Source of the DNA: an uncultured Rubritalea sp.
Lineage (GTDB): Bacteria > Verrucomicrobiota > Verrucomicrobiia > Verrucomicrobiales > Akkermansiaceae
NCBI GenBank assembly: GCA_937132085.1
Contig: CAKZNV010000007.1
Location: 1-34,975 of the forward strand
Reading direction: 5' to 3'
DNA: 34,975 nucleotides
Below are positions 9,296 through 32,109 of this stretch, in pieces. Each line of letters opens with the position of its first letter. The stretch's first letter is position 1. The position numbers and the translations under genes were made by a program. The notes beneath the pieces are model-generated. The model had not been told where the DNA came from and did no database searches. It saw nothing but the letters and a program-made list of their open reading frames with translations.

Positions 9296-10675
9296 TTAGC
9301 ATTCTACTACATTCACAGCGAGGCCACCTCTTGAGGTCTCTTTGTATTTTTCCTGCATATCTTTTCCAGTGTCCCACATCGTCTTGATCACTTTATCCAG
9401 TGATACGAAATGTGTTCCATCACCATTCATCGCCATTCTAGCTGCACTGATTGCCTTCACGCTACCCATCGCATTGCGTTCAATACATGGGATCTGCACC
9501 AGTCCGCCGATAGGATCACAGGTCAAGCCGAGGTTGTGTTCCATGCCGATTTCAGCTGCACACTCTACCTGAGCAGGCGTGCCTCCGAGATACTCTACTA
9601 GAGCGCCAGCAGCCATGCTACAAGCGACCCCCACTTCACCTTGGCAACCTACGTCAGCTCCAGAAATCGAGGCATTCTTCTTATAGAGTGACGCGATCGC
9701 AGCAGCGGTGAGTAAAAACCTGTGCACCCCGTTTCGATGCGGAGTGCTGGCAAATTTAGTAGCATAATGAAGCACGGCTGGAATGATCCCCGCTGCACCG
9801 TTAGTAGGAGCAGTGACAACTCTTCCACCGCCAGCATTCTCTTCATTCACAGCGAGAGCATAGAGACCTACCCAGTCAAGGATCGACAGAGGATCTGCTA
9901 TCAGAGCTTCACCACGCATCAAGAGCTGCTCATGCAGCTTCTTAGCACGGCGCTTTACTTTTAGACCACCGGGAAGAACACCAGAATTGGAGATCCCATT
10001 ACGAACACATTCCTGCATCGTCTCCCAGATCTTATCTAACATCTTGCGAGTTTCTTTCTCAGGACGGATGGAATTTTCATTCGCCATCATGAGCTCAGCG
10101 ACGCTGCAGTTCATGCCTTCACACTGCTCTAGAAGATCATCACCAGTATCAAATGGATGCGGTGTCTCGATGGGTGTTAAAATAGGAGCATCAGCTTTAA
10201 GATCTTTCTCGGTAGAGATAAATCCCCCGCCTAGTGAGTAGTATACTTCCTCTGCTAGAACCTGCCCATCTGCATCTGCTGCGTAGAAATGCATGCCATT
10301 TGGATGTAGAGGAAGTGGCTTGAGACGTTTATAGTCAATGTGCTCACTCTCTACAAAATCAACTATCTTACCACCGGGTAAAGTGAGTTTCTTAGAGGCT
10401 TTTAAATCCTCCATTCGCTGATCCATCGTAGAGACTTCTACAGTATCTGGCATGTCACCCATGAAGCCGAAGATGATTGCTATGCCAGTTCCGTGACCTT
10501 TTCCTGTAGCTGCTAGTGAGCCATATAGATCACATCTAACAGAAGCTACTCGGGAAGAGTTATCTGACTGCATGAGCTCCTCTACGAATGCACAAGCTGC
10601 CTTCATAGGACCCACCGTGTGAGATGAAGACGGTCCTATGCCGATGCTAAATAGCTCTAGAATGGAGATGTGCAT
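9296..10675 (-). CDS. sdaA: L-serine ammonia-lyase, single-chain iron-sulfur type
   Basis: A 459-residue enzyme that deaminates L-serine to pyruvate and ammonia with an oxygen-sensitive 4Fe-4S cluster. The N-terminal half is the beta domain, starting [21 protein letters not shown], the family signature. The C-terminal half is the alpha catalytic domain. Cluster cysteines are visible in [21 protein letters not shown] and [23 protein letters not shown] forms part of the active site. Length matches single-polypeptide SdaA/SdaB of Gram-negative bacteria, not the split Bacillus form. It lies 20 bp after the glyoxalase-like gene and 10 bp before queA. Start at the ATG at 10675, as for other SdaA proteins. 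Confidence 0.96.
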
Positions 10676-15528: not shown

Positions 15529-16317
15529 CTACTGGCCGAGGTTTTTAGTCAAAAACTCTCTTACTTTGTCAGTCACTTGCACACTATCCACTCGATGCGG
15601 ACTATTTTTGGCAATATACAGCTCTACCTCAGATCCCACTGAAGCTATCTCATCATGCAGAATTTGCGACTGAATGAGCGGCACAGTTTCATCCTGATCC
15701 CCATGCACAATGAGAGTCTGAGGGTAGCCAGATTTGACCCAGCGAGTCACCGTTGCTTCCTTAGCCATCGTAGATGTTTCATCATGATCACCACCTAGAA
15801 GCTTCATTACTGGTGATGACTTTCTTTCCTCTCCTGCTAAGCTATCCACAAAAAGATCTACGGTTACTGGTGCACAGTAGTTCACCACACATTTCACATT
15901 CACAGGTTGTTCAGAACGACATCCACCAGCTAGAAGACAAGCCAAATGCGCTCCAGCAGATGACCCCCATAGAGCAATATTAGACGTATCAATTCCAGCA
16001 ACATGTTCCTTCACATAATTTAGCGCAGCTACACAATCATCGATCGGAGCTGGCCAAGTAGCATCTTCCACAAGTCTGTAAGCTACAGAAATGAAAATAA
16101 ATCCTGTGTCTAAGACCTCTGAAATTCTTTTAAAGCCACCTTCCTTATTTCCGAACTCCCAGCCACCTCCATGAAAATACATCACGACTGGTAGACAGCC
16201 ACCTTTAGGATTCAGAGGTCGATAGATATCTAGCTTTTGCCTCATGTGTGTAGAACCCGAAACATAAGAAATGTCCGACTCTAAACTATAAGCTAAATTC
16301 TCCAACTCTATGATCAT
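15529..16317 (-). CDS. Alpha/beta hydrolase, HSL-type esterase/lipase family
   Basis: A 262-residue cytoplasmic alpha/beta hydrolase without a signal peptide. The oxyanion motif HGGGW ([13 protein letters not shown]) and the nucleophile elbow GSSAG ([12 protein letters not shown]) are present. The acid Asp is probably in [11 protein letters not shown] and the catalytic His in [10 protein letters not shown], though the last is less typical than DAGHGF-type endings. It therefore belongs to the hormone-sensitive-lipase/carboxylesterase group acting on small esters. The natural substrate is unknown. Its ATG overlaps the mnmG stop by four bases (ATGA), so it is translationally coupled to mnmG. No functional link between the two is evident. 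Confidence 0.85.
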
Positions 16318-18173
16318 CTAGTCAGCTTTTCAATCCAGATTGATAGTAGAGAGAGATCCGCAGGAGTGATTCCTGAGATCCTGCTAGCCTGTCCAATCGT
16401 CGATGGGCGAATCTGCACAAGTAACTGTCTAGCCTCATTCTTAAGTCCATTAACTTCCTCATAATCAATATCTTGCGGTATTTTCTTATGTTCCATTTTT
16501 GAGACTTTTTCTACCTGACGTCGTTGACGCTCAAGGTGTCCTGCGAATTTAAAATCAGTCTCAATGATCGGCCAAAGCTCATTATCATATTTAGCAATGA
16601 TTTCCTCAGGAAGCTCTTCCCAAACATTTTCTGGACGTCTAAACCAATGGTCGAGTCGCACCTGTTGATAAGTAGTCGCCTTGATATATTCGGCCGCTTC
16701 AGCTAGCTTTGCGATTTTCTCCTCAGTGCGTCGCTGGCGCTCCTCCGTCACTATGCCCCGCTCAGCAGCTAAAGGTGTGAGTCTCAGATCTGCATTATCC
16801 TGACGCAGCAGCAGGCGATATTCAGCTCTACTAGTAAACATACGATACGGCTCAGTGCAGCCTTTCGTCACTAAATCGTCAATCATCACACCGATGTAAG
16901 CTTGATCTCTACCAAGAATAAATGGCTCTTCGCCTCTGACTTTCAGCACCGCATTCACACCAGCCATCAAACCTTGTGCTGCCGCTTCTTCATATCCAGA
17001 AGTTCCGTTGATCTGTCCTGCAAAGTATAAATTCTCTACAAGCTTCGTTTCTAAGGTGAGCTTAAGCTGAGTGGCTGGACAGTAGTCATACTCCACAGCA
17101 TAGCCTGGACGGATGATCTCCGCATTCTCTAAGCCTTCGATAGAGCGAATAAAATCCAGCTGCACATCGTAGGGCAACGAAGTCGAAACTCCATTAATAT
17201 AATACTCGTGAGTGTGTCTTCCCTCTGGCTCTAGGAATACCTGGTGCCTTTCCTTCTCCGCAAATTTCACTACCTTGTCCTCAATACTCGGACAATAGCG
17301 TGGTCCTACGCCCTCGATCTTTCCAGAATACATCGGTGACTGATGGAGATTCTCACGGATTACATCGTGAGTTTTTGGGTTAGTGTAGGTGATCCAACAC
17401 GGCACTTGTTCCACGTGGAACATTTCATCGCCCCAAGGATTTAGGGTGAAGATGTCATTTGGCTCCTTCTCGATAGTATCATAGAGATAGGAAAATTTAG
17501 GGATTGGGAAATCACCCCCCTGCTTTTCGCACTTACTAAAATCAATTGATCGCCCATTGATACGACATGGAGTTCCTGTTTTAAATCGCTCTACCTCAAA
17601 TCCGAGTTCTTTCAGACTGTCACTGACTGTAGAAATGGCATCGCCCATGCGACCACCTTTTTCGTTTTTTAGACCTACATGCATGAGTCCACGCATGAAT
17701 GTGCCAGCACTTAGAATGACTGTTTCAGCACTGATCTCCATTTGAAGACTCGTTCTGATTCCTTTAACTTTACCCTCTTCTACTAAAATTTCTGCTACGT
17801 TGCCTTGGTGGAGATCCAGATTATCTGTGCTCTCTACTACGTGCTTCATGCGGAATTGATATGCCTTTTTATCGCACTGTGCTCTAGGAGCTCTCACTGA
17901 AGGCCCTTTTTTCTGATTGAGCATTCTCCATTGGATAGCTGTCGCATCAGTATTCAGTGCCATAGCGCCACCTAGTGCATCAATCTCTCGCACCATGTGA
18001 CCTTTCGCTAAACCTCCAATAGCTGGGTTGCAAGACATTGCACCTATCGTATCGAGGTTCTGTGTAAGTATCGCTACAGAGCTCCCCATTCTAGCTGCAG
18101 CCAGTGCAGCTTCTACACCGGCATGGCCAGCGCCAATGACTAAGACATCATACTTTTTAGGATAAAGGAACAT
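16314..18173 (-). CDS. mnmG: tRNA uridine-5-carboxymethylaminomethyl modification enzyme, FAD subunit
   Basis: A 619-residue MnmG (GidA). With MnmE it modifies the wobble uridine of certain tRNAs using FAD, NADH and methylene-tetrahydrofolate. The FAD Rossmann motif is at the N-terminus ([22 protein letters not shown]). MnmG signatures include [46 protein letters not shown] and [16 protein letters not shown], and the C-terminal helical domain binds MnmE and tRNA. Length is typical. The insertion MFHVE before [10 protein letters not shown] is encoded by a parS site. mnmE and rsmG are not adjacent. mnmG often lies close to the replication origin. The esterase gene overlaps its 3-prime end by four bases. 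Confidence 0.97.
17407..17422. other. parS chromosome-partition site, inside mnmG
   Basis: TGTTCCACGTGGAACA, a perfect 16-bp palindrome matching the bacterial ParB-binding consensus TGTTnCACGTGnAACA. It lies in the mnmG coding region and is read on the minus strand as the residues MFHVEQ, an insertion relative to E. coli MnmG. An identical copy lies at 18233-18248. ParB loads here and spreads for chromosome segregation. Confidence 0.92.
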
Positions 18174-18232: not shown

Positions 18233-18248
18233 TGTTCCACGTGGAACA
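18233..18248. other. parS chromosome-partition site, upstream of mnmG
   Basis: Second perfect TGTTCCACGTGGAACA palindrome, 826 bp from the first, in the divergent intergenic region between mnmG (start 18173) and the DUF6580 gene (start 18314). ParB binding here could also influence both promoters. No parA or parB gene is in the window. Confidence 0.92.
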
Positions 18249-26796: not shown

Positions 26797-27432
26797 TTAC
26801 TCGTCATCAGACTCTTCTAAAGGCTCCTCAACGGGAGCCTTTTTTTGTGCTCGTGCCTTGTAGACACTGGCTCTTGGTTTGATATTGATCGTGTAGGTAG
26901 TGAAACTCGCTGTGCAAGCGGTCTTCTGGAGTAAATTCTCTAACACTGTCCCTGCAGGCACATTTTTAAGCTTCAGTGTGATACTCTCATTACCTAGATA
27001 TCGTTTAGGATCTTGAATCACAAAGTTTGGAGTCAATTTATCTCCTGAAGCAGTCTCTACTTTGGCTCCTAATAGACGAATTGCCTGCGCCAATGTCAGA
27101 TCTTTGAAATCAACTTCTTTGATCATCACCGCATTAAAAATACGCTTCTTTTTCGCTAAGACCATCTGACCACCGTTGAGTCTGATCTGACGCTGCAATG
27201 CTATCCCCTTAGCATAGCTAGGCTTCTCTGCAAGCAGCGCTCGGAGGGTTTGTCTCGCTGCATCGATGTCACCGTCCTTGTAGGCTCTCTCGGCCATATT
27301 ATACATTGCTTGCAAATGCTGTGCTTTCTTCTGTCTCTCAACAATTGTATCTTGAGCCATGACTCCACTCACCATTGCTAAGGATACTCCTAGTAATGTG
27401 ACTGATCTTTTTAGTGTGTTAGTTCTTTTCAT
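26797..27432 (-). CDS. Secreted STN-domain-like protein with N-terminal TPR-like helices
   Basis: A 211-residue exported protein. Residues 1-26 are a Sec signal peptide ending VMA before QD. Residues about 30-85 form a helical repeat region (LQAMYNMAERAYKDGDIDAARQTLRALLAEKP), similar to a TPR. Residues about 105-190 resemble the secretin/TonB short N-terminal domain: VDFKDLTLAQAIRLLGAKVE, then FVIQDP, SITLKLKNVPAGTVLENLLQKT and ASFTTYTINIKP. Such proteins in related bacteria lie near secretin or pilus systems, but no such genes are here. The C-terminal tail is acidic and overlaps a terminator for the convergent gene. The 5-prime side faces the candidate replication origin. Function unknown; an envelope assembly role is a guess. 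Confidence 0.78.
   Translation of the reverse strand: MKRTNTLKRSVTLLGVSLAMVSGVMAQDTIVERQKKAQHLQAMYNMAERAYKDGDIDAARQTLRALLAEKPSYAKGIALQRQIRLNGGQMVLAKKKRIFNAVMIKEVDFKDLTLAQAIRLLGAKVETASGDKLTPNFVIQDPKRYLGNESITLKLKNVPAGTVLENLLQKTACTASFTTYTINIKPRASVYKARAQKKAPVEEPLEESDDE
26820..26846 (+). terminator. Rho-independent terminator overlapping the convergent gene's 3-prime end
   Basis: Stem AGGCTCC (26821-26827) / GGAGCCT (26834-26840) followed by a run of seven T (26840-26846), just 24 bp after the coiled-coil gene stop. It lies wholly inside the coding region of the minus-strand STN-domain gene, where it encodes part of a KKAPVEEPLEE tail. The T-run faces the plus-strand transcript. Confidence 0.8.
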
Positions 27433-27847
27433 AAATTGGTTTGGTTTTAGATTAGTTTCATCAAGTCTATTTTAGAGAGAAACAAAACGATTGATTCATG
27501 GCTTACTACGTGAACTTACTCACAAGGTTATTATATTTCTTTATTTAAATAGAAAACATATCTTCTTCTTAAGCGTGTGAACAAGTCGCCGATTTAGCTG
27601 TTCCTCACCTAAAGTATCAATGTTCCACCGTGTTAATAGAGTGTGTAAAAACTATCAGTGGCTCTGGGCAAACTAGCCTATCACAGTAAAAGTTATTCCC
27701 TATTATTCTCAATCCACAGTTTATTCACAACAAGAACTTCACTTATTAAAGCTTATTCACAACCGTTCACAGCCCTCATTTGCTATTTTGGAGAGTGATC
27801 GAATTCAGCTTTATTGACAGAAATGATACCGTCTGTTAGAGTGAAGT
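27433..27847. other. Candidate replication origin (oriC) region: DnaA-box-like cluster next to AT-rich DNA
   Basis: The longest gene-free stretch of the window (415 bp). Plus-strand 9-mers resembling the DnaA box TTATCCACA: TTATTCACA at 27721-27729 and 27753-27761, TTATTCTCA at 27703-27711, CAATCCACA at 27710-27718, TTACTCACA at 27516-27524, with weaker TTATTCCCT (27693) and CCGTTCACA (27763). On the minus strand TTGTTCACA is at 27584-27576. An AT-rich tract at about 27526-27560 could be the unwinding element. TGTTCCAC at 27621-27628 is a parS half-site. Two full parS sites lie about 9-10 kb away, and the genes on the right run rightward. The alternative is an ordinary long divergent promoter region. 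dnaA and dnaN are not in the window. Confidence 0.5.
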
Positions 27848-28602: not shown

Positions 28603-31600
28603 ATGTCAGACTCATTTGTTCATCTCCACGTTCACACAGAATATTCAGTAAAAGATTCGATCGTTCGTATCAAGGATCTTGCGGCAAAAGTCTCAGATTT
28701 TGAGATGCCTGCAGTGGCGATGACTGACCACGGAAATCTATATGGAACGGTGGTTTTCTATCAGAAAATGCATGGAGCAGGAGTGAAGCCTATTTTAGGT
28801 TGTGAGGTCTACTTAGCGCCAACATCACTAGAACAGAAGAAGGATTTCCCTGGTCGTAAACGTTCTACGCATCTCACACTTTTAGCCAAAGATACTGTAG
28901 GCTGGAATAATCTTACTAAGCTTGTTTCAGTAGGTCATCTCGATGGCGACTACTTCGGTGAGCCTCGTGTCGACAGAGAAACTCTGGCAAAATACTCAGA
29001 AGGCGTAATTTGTCTCAGTGGCGATGAAGATGGACCTATTCAAGAGTGGCTGGATAAGGGAGATCTGGATAAAGCTCGTGAGGAAGTAAAGCTCCTCAAA
29101 GACATCTATGGAGCGGATGATTTCTACATCGAGCTCATGGATCACCATCTGGAGCATCAGTCTAAGAATATCCCTATTTTATGCGGGTTTGCAGAGGAAT
29201 TTGGTCTTAAAGTAGTGGCTACCAATGATGTCCACTTCATCGAAAAACAAGACCATGAAGCTCTCGATTGTCTGATCTGTATTGGCGAAGGTAGACTCCT
29301 ACTCGATGAGAACCGTAAGACATACTCAAATCAGGTATATTTAAAATCACCAGCGGAAATGCGTGAGCTGTTTAAGGATATTCCGGGCGCTTGCGATAAC
29401 ACTTTAGAGATAGCGGAGAAATGTAATGTAGAAATCATTCTAGATCCGACTTCCTCTGAGAAATACCCACAGTTTGAGTCACCAGATGGCTCACCACGTG
29501 AAGAGTATTTCCGCAAGGTCTGCTATGATGGTCTCAAAAATCGTTACCCGCAAAAACGCATCGACGAACTGTGTAAACGTAATGAAGTGGATGAAGAGGG
29601 GATGTGGAAAATCCTTCATGAACGCCTAGATTACGAGATCGAAACAATTAACTCGCTAGGCTTCGCATCTTACTTCTTGATCACTGCCGACTTTATCAAC
29701 TGGGGCCGCGAGCAGGGCATACCAGTAGGGCCTGGAAGGGGATCAGCAGCTGGATCACTAGTGGCATACACGATGGCAATTACTGACATTTGCCCTATAC
29801 TTTTCGGACTACTTTTCGAGCGATTCCTTAACCCAGAGCGTGTTTCTCCACCCGATGTGGATATTGACTTCTGCCAGACTAGACGCCCAGAAGTGATCCA
29901 GTATGTGCGTGAGAAATACGGTGAACGCTGTGTTTCCCACATCATTACATACGGCACAATGGGTGCTAAATCTGTGATTCGAGACGTAGCGAGAGTATTG
30001 GGTGTTTCCTATGGAGATGCGGATACGCTAGCTAAGCTTATCGAGGCTGTGCCTGGTGTCACTCTTAAATCTGAATGGGATGCGAAAGAAGAACTACGTA
30101 ATGTGGTAGAAGCATCATCTACATTCACGGAGCTCTGGACATTTGCTACTAAACTAGAAGGTCTGACCCGAAACACGGGTGTCCACGCTGCTGGTGTGGT
30201 TATCGGTGATGGTGATCTTGACCATCACGTCCCACTGGCACGTGCTAAGGAAGGGGAAGTAGTCACTCAGGCAGACATGAATGCCATCACAGAGATCGGC
30301 CTTCTAAAGATGGACTTCCTCGGACTGAAGAACCTCACTGTCATTCAAGATGCGATTAATCATATCCATCTCCACACTCCAGATTTCGATATCTACGAGA
30401 TAGAGCTAGACGACAAACCTGCTCTAGACCTCCTCAACCGTGGTGAGACCATGGGTGTCTTCCAGCTGGAATCCGGTGGTATGGTCGAGACTTGTAAGAA
30501 ATATGGAATCGATAAGATTGACGACATTATTGACCTTCTCGCTCTCTACCGACCGGGTGCGATGCAGTTTATCGACCAAATGATCGACGTCAAAAAAGGT
30601 GTCACTGCGGTAGAGTATGAGCACCCACTGCTAGAAGAGATCTGTGGAAATACCTACGGAGTAATGATCTATCAGGAACAGGTGCAGAATGCTGCTAAGC
30701 TGCTAGCTGGTTACACACTCGGTGGTGCGGATATTCTTCGTCGTGCGATGGGTAAGAAAAAAGCCTCTGTGATGGATGAACAGCGTAAGACATTCGTCAA
30801 AGGCTGTGCAGATGCCAACCAGATCCCAGCAAATCTAGCCAACAAGATTTTCGATAAGATCGCTAGTTTCGCTGGATATGGATTCAATAAATCTCACTCA
30901 GCCTGCTACGGACACATTTCCTATTGGACTGCCTACTTGAAGGCGAATTTCCCAGTAGAATTCATGTCTGGCTTGCTGTCTAACGAACTTAATAATACTG
31001 AGAAAATTGCTATTTTCATCTCAGAGTGTCACCGCATGGGCATCGAAGTCCTGCCACCAGATTTAAATCAATCTATGGTGAAATTCGCCCCAGAGAAGAC
31101 ACCATCTGGCAAAATGGCAATCCGTTACGGACTAGCAGCAGTCAAGAACGTGGGTGAAGCCGCGATGGTGACTGCTGTTGCTGAACGCAAGAAGAGCGGA
31201 CCATTTGTCTCAATGGAAGACCTGTCTAACAGGCTAGACACCAAGGTCGTCAACAAGCGCATCTTAGAGAACCTCATCAAAGCTGGAGCTCTAGATTTCA
31301 CGAAATTGAACCGTGCAACACTCGATTCTAAGCTAGCCAATGTGATTTCCTCAGCCTCATCCACCCACCGTGACAGAGCGGCTGGGCAGGGGAGTATGTT
31401 CGACAACATGGACTTCGGTGCGCCTGAGCCAGCCGCAGATACTCAAGGCTACATAGCAGAGTGGACTAAGGATGAGCGCCTTTTAGAAGAGAAGACTCTA
31501 CTAGGCTACTACACCTCAGGTCACCCACTAGATGCTGTCCGAGTCCAGCTGGATAAGGATATGTATACTAAAATTGCGACGATTGATGAAGTAGATATCA

Positions 31601-32109
31601 GTGATCGTAAGAAACGCCTACGTATCGCTGGGATTATCAAGACTGTAGAACACCGCATGACCAAAGGAGGTAAACCATTTGGAATTATAACCATTGAGGA
31701 TCTTACTGGTGTGCGTGAGGTATTGTCTTGGTCAGAAAGTTACACACCCGCTAGTGAAGAGGGGCTATTAGAGTCTGGGAGCTTGGTGAAAATGTTTATC
31801 AATATCCAAGAAGACGACCGTAACCCTGGGCAACGCCGAGTTTCAGGTAGTAAGATAGAACAGATAAAATCCAAGGTTAAAGCCAAGAACTCTAAAGACG
31901 ATTTCAATCTTCTATTATTCACCACTAGACATAATCAAGAAGACCTAGATGAAATTCTCAAAGTCATTCAAAAATACCCTGGGAAAACCAAAGTAATTCT
32001 AACTATTCAGAACACACTAGGTGAGCGAGTCCAATTAGAACTACCTGATCGACTGTGCATTAGAATGAATAGAGATTTAGACAAAGAATTAGCAAGGTTT
32101 TTAGCGTAG
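28603..32109 (+). CDS. dnaE: DNA polymerase III alpha subunit
   Basis: A 1168-residue replicative polymerase. The N-terminal PHP domain begins FVHLHVHTEYS with the metal-binding pattern HxH and TDHGNLYG. The polymerase core shows GPGRGSAAGSLVAYT, PDVDIDFCQTRR with catalytic D418 and D420, and LLKMDFLGLKNL with the third acidic residue D571 (equivalent to E. coli D401, D403 and D555). The HhH and OB domains follow, with RLRIAGIIKTVEHRMTKGG marking the OB fold. Length is close to that of E. coli (1160). The start is ATG 28603. It lies downstream of a terminator, so it has its own promoter in the 28504-28602 gap, and is the first large gene to the right of the candidate origin. Confidence 0.97.
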   Translation: MSDSFVHLHVHTEYSVKDSIVRIKDLAAKVSDFEMPAVAMTDHGNLYGTVVFYQKMHGAGVKPILGCEVYLAPTSLEQKKDFPGRKRSTHLTLLAKDTVGWNNLTKLVSVGHLDGDYFGEPRVDRETLAKYSEGVICLSGDEDGPIQEWLDKGDLDKAREEVKLLKDIYGADDFYIELMDHHLEHQSKNIPILCGFAEEFGLKVVATNDVHFIEKQDHEALDCLICIGEGRLLLDENRKTYSNQVYLKSPAEMRELFKDIPGACDNTLEIAEKCNVEIILDPTSSEKYPQFESPDGSPREEYFRKVCYDGLKNRYPQKRIDELCKRNEVDEEGMWKILHERLDYEIETINSLGFASYFLITADFINWGREQGIPVGPGRGSAAGSLVAYTMAITDICPILFGLLFERFLNPERVSPPDVDIDFCQTRRPEVIQYVREKYGERCVSHIITYGTMGAKSVIRDVARVLGVSYGDADTLAKLIEAVPGVTLKSEWDAKEELRNVVEASSTFTELWTFATKLEGLTRNTGVHAAGVVIGDGDLDHHVPLARAKEGEVVTQADMNAITEIGLLKMDFLGLKNLTVIQDAINHIHLHTPDFDIYEIELDDKPALDLLNRGETMGVFQLESGGMVETCKKYGIDKIDDIIDLLALYRPGAMQFIDQMIDVKKGVTAVEYEHPLLEEICGNTYGVMIYQEQVQNAAKLLAGYTLGGADILRRAMGKKKASVMDEQRKTFVKGCADANQIPANLANKIFDKIASFAGYGFNKSHSACYGHISYWTAYLKANFPVEFMSGLLSNELNNTEKIAIFISECHRMGIEVLPPDLNQSMVKFAPEKTPSGKMAIRYGLAAVKNVGEAAMVTAVAERKKSGPFVSMEDLSNRLDTKVVNKRILENLIKAGALDFTKLNRATLDSKLANVISSASSTHRDRAAGQGSMFDNMDFGAPEPAADTQGYIAEWTKDERLLEEKTLLGYYTSGHPLDAVRVQLDKDMYTKIATIDEVDISDRKKRLRIAGIIKTVEHRMTKGGKPFGIITIEDLTGVREVLSWSESYTPASEEGLLESGSLVKMFINIQEDDRNPGQRRVSGSKIEQIKSKVKAKNSKDDFNLLLFTTRHNQEDLDEILKVIQKYPGKTKVILTIQNTLGERVQLELPDRLCIRMNRDLDKELARFLA

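Follow-up and report, generated by a model that had tools for sequence, protein, structure and literature searches.

A conserved DnaA-box core away from dnaA as the candidate chromosomal replication origin of Rubritalea

Replication origins are commonly sought beside dnaA, and the locus described here lies elsewhere. The window, the whole stretch of 34,975 nucleotides that was analysed, is contig 7 of a 254-contig draft assembly (4.46 Mb) of a Rubritalea species (Akkermansiaceae, Verrucomicrobiales), whose DnaE is 83% identical to that of an uncultured Rubritalea, 73% to that of R. marina and 71% to that of R. profundi. Between a left-pointing and a right-pointing gene lies a gap of 415 bp (27433-27847), for which an earlier note had proposed a chromosomal replication origin. 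The gap is indeed the longest between accepted genes of the window, and the leading-strand gene bias that the note had read from its surroundings holds, with all five right-hand genes pointing right and 19 of the 25 left-hand genes pointing left. In the left flanking protein, a TPR-like part is joined to a region with weak similarity to secretins (Amuc_1098 family, E 3.9e-9); this protein is fast-evolving and still found beside the putative origin in most of the genus. On the right, dnaE is 0.85 kb away in the window, and among other Rubritalea this distance is about 29 kb in G011, 40 kb in R. profundi and 150 kb in G006. We dropped dnaE as a landmark for the origin, its neighbourhood varying even within the genus. 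The features are, by position in the window:

16314-18173, minus strand: mnmG (gidA), TIGR00136, E 1.5e-239
17407-17422: parS inside mnmG, found by searching the genome for TGTTCCACGTGGAACA
18233-18248: parS just upstream of mnmG, found by the same TGTTCCACGTGGAACA search
26797-27432, minus strand: left flanking gene, TPR-like with a weak STN/secretin-like region, adjoining the core in nine Rubritalea genomes
27514-27763: conserved candidate origin core of about 250 bp, profile region of model R1 (near gap-free alignment of nine Rubritalea; the profile hits 79 of the 190 sampled members of the order)
27516-27524, plus strand: DnaA box A, TTACTCACA, TTATTCACA-like in other genera (alignments)
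27525-27560: AT-rich stretch, candidate DNA unwinding element (least stable 30-mer from 27528)
27561-27571, plus strand: TCTTCTTCTTA tract adjoining box B, conserved across genera (alignments)
27576-27584, minus strand: DnaA box B, TGTGAACAA on the plus strand, 60 bp from box A (alignments)
27599-27607, plus strand: X1 element TGTTCCTCA, candidate degenerate DnaA box (alignments)
27621-27629, plus strand: X2 element TGTTCCACC, 22 bp after X1, GTTCCACG in many other genera (alignments)
27631-27639, minus strand: degenerate reverse DnaA box C, TGTTAATAG on the plus strand, TGTGAATAG in G006 and G007 (alignment)
27642-27650, minus strand: degenerate reverse DnaA box D, TGTGTAAAA on the plus strand, TGTGAATAA in G002, G004 and G007 (alignment)
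27693-27701, plus strand: degenerate forward box E, TTATTCCCT, TTATTCACA in G004 and G006 (alignment)
27703-27711, plus strand: forward box F, TTATTCTCA (9-mer search, alignment)
27710-27718, plus strand: forward box G, CAATCCACA (9-mer search, alignment)
27721-27729, plus strand: forward box H, TTATTCACA (9-mer search, alignments)
27753-27761, plus strand: forward box I, TTATTCACA (9-mer search, alignment)
28603-32109, plus strand: dnaE (Pol III alpha), right flank in the window, not adjoining the core in relatives

The gap holds an intergenic cluster of DnaA boxes. The run of same-strand 9-mers noticed earlier is confirmed, with TTATTCTCA at 27703, CAATCCACA at 27710 and TTATTCACA at 27721 and 27753, all on the plus strand and within 59 bp. 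Counting exact and one-mismatch copies of TTATTCACA, the gap scores 10 and is the best-scoring 415-bp stretch of the window, while 5000 Markov shuffles have a mean of 0.29 and none reaches 10. The 9-mer occurs 57 times in the 4.46-Mb draft, and the two copies in the gap, 32 bp apart, form its only pair with a distance below 300 bp. The AT-rich tract is likewise borne out: by calculated stability, no 30-mer of the window is less stable than the one that begins at 27528, in the interval from box A to box B, which gives a candidate for an easily unwound element beside the boxes. The two parS sites and mnmG were also correctly placed near the gap, TGTTCCACGTGGAACA at 17407 and 18233 being 9.3-10.3 kb away and present nowhere else in the draft genome; parS clusters near the core are found in relatives, too. 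The absence of dnaA from the window was rightly noted; the gene lies on a separate contig (C103) of the draft, and in R. profundi it is 1.8 Mb away from the core. An Rfam search returned no RNA family, and a reading as structured RNA was discarded (fold z-score 0.59).

If the cluster is an origin, it should recur in the same gap of related genomes. Homologues of the left flanking protein were found in 10 of the 12 Rubritalea genomes searched, the window's genome counted, and the box cluster lies upstream of this gene in eight further genomes of the genus. Over about 250 bp (27514-27763) hardly a gap is needed to align the nine sequences, and the spacings are fixed, with 60 bp between boxes A and B, 28 bp between E and H and 32 bp between H and I. 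Some of the boxes with a degenerate sequence in the window match TTATTCACA exactly at the same alignment column in other species, namely D in G002, G004 and G007 and E in G004 and G006. The left flanking protein is only 26-51% identical among relatives, nevertheless the core is kept. Since the right flank varies among Rubritalea species and dnaE is not conserved there, the core, and not an operon, is the conserved unit. In R. marina (G010), the tenth genome with a homologue, the contig that carries the left-gene homologue has no boxes, and parS is on another contig.

The layout extends to other genera. The order is box A TTATTCACA, the AT-rich tract, TCTTCTTCTTC, reverse box B TGTGAATAA, X1, X2, a weaker reverse box and forward box H TTATTCACA; the offsets are about +24 for X1 with GTTCC(A/C)C, about +46 for X2 with GTTCCACG and about +145 for box H, all taken from rows in which box B was correctly anchored and from the alignments. 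The tract at 27561-27571 (TCTTCTTCTTA; TCTTCTTCTT tract), beside the first reverse box B, is nearly invariant across the order; it resembles a trinucleotide unwinding motif, but by our reading on the unexpected strand. X1 and X2 (27599-27607 and 27621-27629) are GTTCC(A/C/T)C elements 22 bp apart, equal to two helical turns, and keep a fixed distance from box B across genera. In bits per column, X2 (1.49) is conserved nearly as well as the DnaA boxes B (1.69) and H (1.54). A simpler reading would take X1 and X2 as degenerate forward DnaA boxes; X2 differs from the general DnaA box TTWTNCACA at two positions and so may be a degenerate box. The pair could conceivably form a second, non-DnaA recognition system, bound by another protein and coupling segregation to initiation, which we consider unlikely; ParB or a ParB-like protein is a candidate because X2 equals the left half of the group's parS TGTTCCACGTGGAACA. 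A full parS inside the core was looked for and rejected, the best match having 4-7 mismatches.

A profile of the core was searched over 4.0 Mb, which included deliberately chosen parS regions and, as background, about 1.5 Mb from elsewhere (taken from three chromosomes and from 80 dnaE contigs). Matches with E of at most 0.001 were found only at the Rubritalea loci and near parS in six genomes of other genera (G029, G039, G044, G055, G064 and G019), at a distance of 4-9 kb from parS. Four near-complete chromosomes from other genera have their match at 6-9 kb from parS and not near dnaA, and the dnaA regions of R. profundi and of the window's genome gave no profile score. Whole-genome searches, which are free of the parS-selection bias, matched 79 of the 190 members sampled from the order, in most cases at a single place and in a few genomes at two, and in G029, G044, G055 and G064 they point to the same site as the parS-region search. 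A strict TTATNCACA search near parS failed in G029 and G055, where the profile succeeded. With the stricter filters that were applied, about 58% of the 190 sampled order members have no match, thus the profile falls short of the whole order; in a phylum-wide sample 11 of 195 genomes match, several of them weakly. In genus g3 (G037, G046) the profile has no match; there are TTATTCACA clusters about 1.6 kb from mnmG, at a local minimum of cumulative skew (40 kb read). Among the genomes with two matches, G064 carries them in tandem about 0.5 kb apart (L225:9136-9364 and 9644-9887) and G159 about 4 kb apart, which suggests a duplicated or bipartite origin. A second, weak match of G022 (C9:143462-143651) lies about 14 kb from its dnaA on the same contig and may be a remnant of a dnaA-linked site or a chance hit.

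The earlier note had expected the cumulative GC-skew minimum of the complete chromosome at about 27.6 kb. Within the window the cumulative minimum is at about 27-28 kb, with a sign change at the gap. The window's genome is a 254-contig draft; chromosome-scale skew was drawn from R. profundi, G055 and G044, sampling 20 kb every 208-285 kb, plus a continuous stretch of 380 kb in R. profundi. The latter genome is nearly a single scaffold (4,159,517 bp), and its skew, as sampled, passes from negative to positive values at around 1.5-1.7 Mb. The cumulative minimum lies at 1.656-1.664 Mb in a trough about 100 kb wide that extends to about 1.756 Mb. The R. profundi core (1,723,359-1,723,616) is inside this trough, yet 60-67 kb from its lowest point, and this offset is a real imprecision. 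The only TTATNCACA cluster of the 380-kb stretch is found there (1,723,359-1,723,546), parS follows at 1.7315-1.7324 Mb, 8-9 kb from the core, and dnaA is at 3.547 Mb. At the coarse sampling used, the skew switch of G055 (2.30-2.57 Mb) brackets the profile match (2.425 Mb), dnaA being located at 5.47 Mb, and that of G044 (0.26-0.49 Mb) is noisy but compatible with an origin at the match at 0.406 Mb.

The box clusters of the relatives, the R. profundi trough and the coarse skew switches in two chromosomes of other genera thus support the proposal of the earlier note. The case is built on the box cluster, the easily melted tract, the rigidly conserved layout, the mostly single copy and the position relative to parS and skew in relatives. 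We infer that the gap is very probably the oriC of this Rubritalea, at which replication would initiate. It would be an origin of the DnaA type that is not linked to dnaA and has the parS sites at mnmG 9-10 kb away. Following the general bacterial mechanism, DnaA-ATP would bind reverse box B, with the weaker C and D, and the forward boxes, the weak E-G and the strong H and I. The reverse and forward arrays face each other, and the DnaA oligomer might open the AT-rich tract between A and B. Helicase would be loaded at this opened tract, and two forks would depart in opposite directions from the core.

Other functions have to be weighed against initiation. Clusters of DnaA boxes also occur in loci of the datA or DARS type known from E. 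coli, and the gap might be such a regulatory or titration site with initiation taking place elsewhere nearby, a reading to which the displaced skew minimum of R. profundi lends some weight. However, an easily melted tract lies between the boxes of the core, no other TTATNCACA cluster occurs in the 380-kb stretch that spans the R. profundi trough, and the distance of the core to parS stays at about 4-13 kb across genera, so that we regard titration as improbable. The position between two divergent genes would also suit a DnaA-regulated promoter or leader of these genes. This seems more improbable still, because the right-hand side changes among relatives while the core is kept, the core persists beside a strongly diverged left protein, and the core carries some ten DnaA-like sites at fixed spacing. 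That AT-rich DNA such as this gap produced the cluster by chance is practically negligible, given that no shuffle reached its score and that it is conserved in nine species. An origin of replication thus remains the favoured reading.

Origins distant from dnaA are known, and a search of the accessible literature for an oriC element of Verrucomicrobia returned no description. The locus would therefore represent a known kind of origin, with an element apparently undescribed for Verrucomicrobiales. The core is far from dnaA, where annotators usually search, and the complete records of G037, G046 and G064 start at dnaA. A base-resolved candidate origin and a searchable profile are now at hand for an order in which several complete records do so. 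This would enable peak-to-trough estimates of growth rate in metagenomes of marine and gut Verrucomicrobiota, correct genome rotation and replicating plasmids for species in which genetic engineering is difficult, and would permit a direct test of the role of the conserved GTTCC(A/C)C pair.

In E. coli, oriC has facing DnaA boxes beside an AT-rich tract, mnmG (gidA) is nearby and dnaA is elsewhere. The Rubritalea core is similar in its boxes, which face each other beside one AT-rich tract, in the neighbouring mnmG and in the remote dnaA. It differs in that mnmG is 9-10 kb off, parS is present, the box is TTATTCACA, and an extra GTTCC(A/C)C pair and the TCTTCTTCTT tract are found. The BUS of B. 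subtilis-type origins consists of a DnaA-box, a spacer of up to 16 bp and DnaA-trios (PMC8287927). The core shares with it DnaA boxes that adjoin an AT-rich tract and a TTC run of trinucleotide-like character. Unlike the B. subtilis type, the core is unlinked to dnaA; the TTC run adjoins box B with its trios, by our reading, on the unexpected strand, and box A is about 35 bp away, beyond the 16-bp limit (PMC8287927). Alignments read by eye with the rules of that work (at least three conserved DnaA-trios, middle A, next to a box) gave no consistent array. Akkermansia muciniphila belongs to the same family; for one strain of it, a study of twelve gut bacteria uses parS, GC skew and read coverage to assign the origin to an approximate region, and it states that in these species ori is not in every case found at dnaA (PMC10197239). 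The Rubritalea core agrees with this placement by parS and skew, and adds what the consulted passages of that study do not give, a sequence element with a defined layout of boxes.
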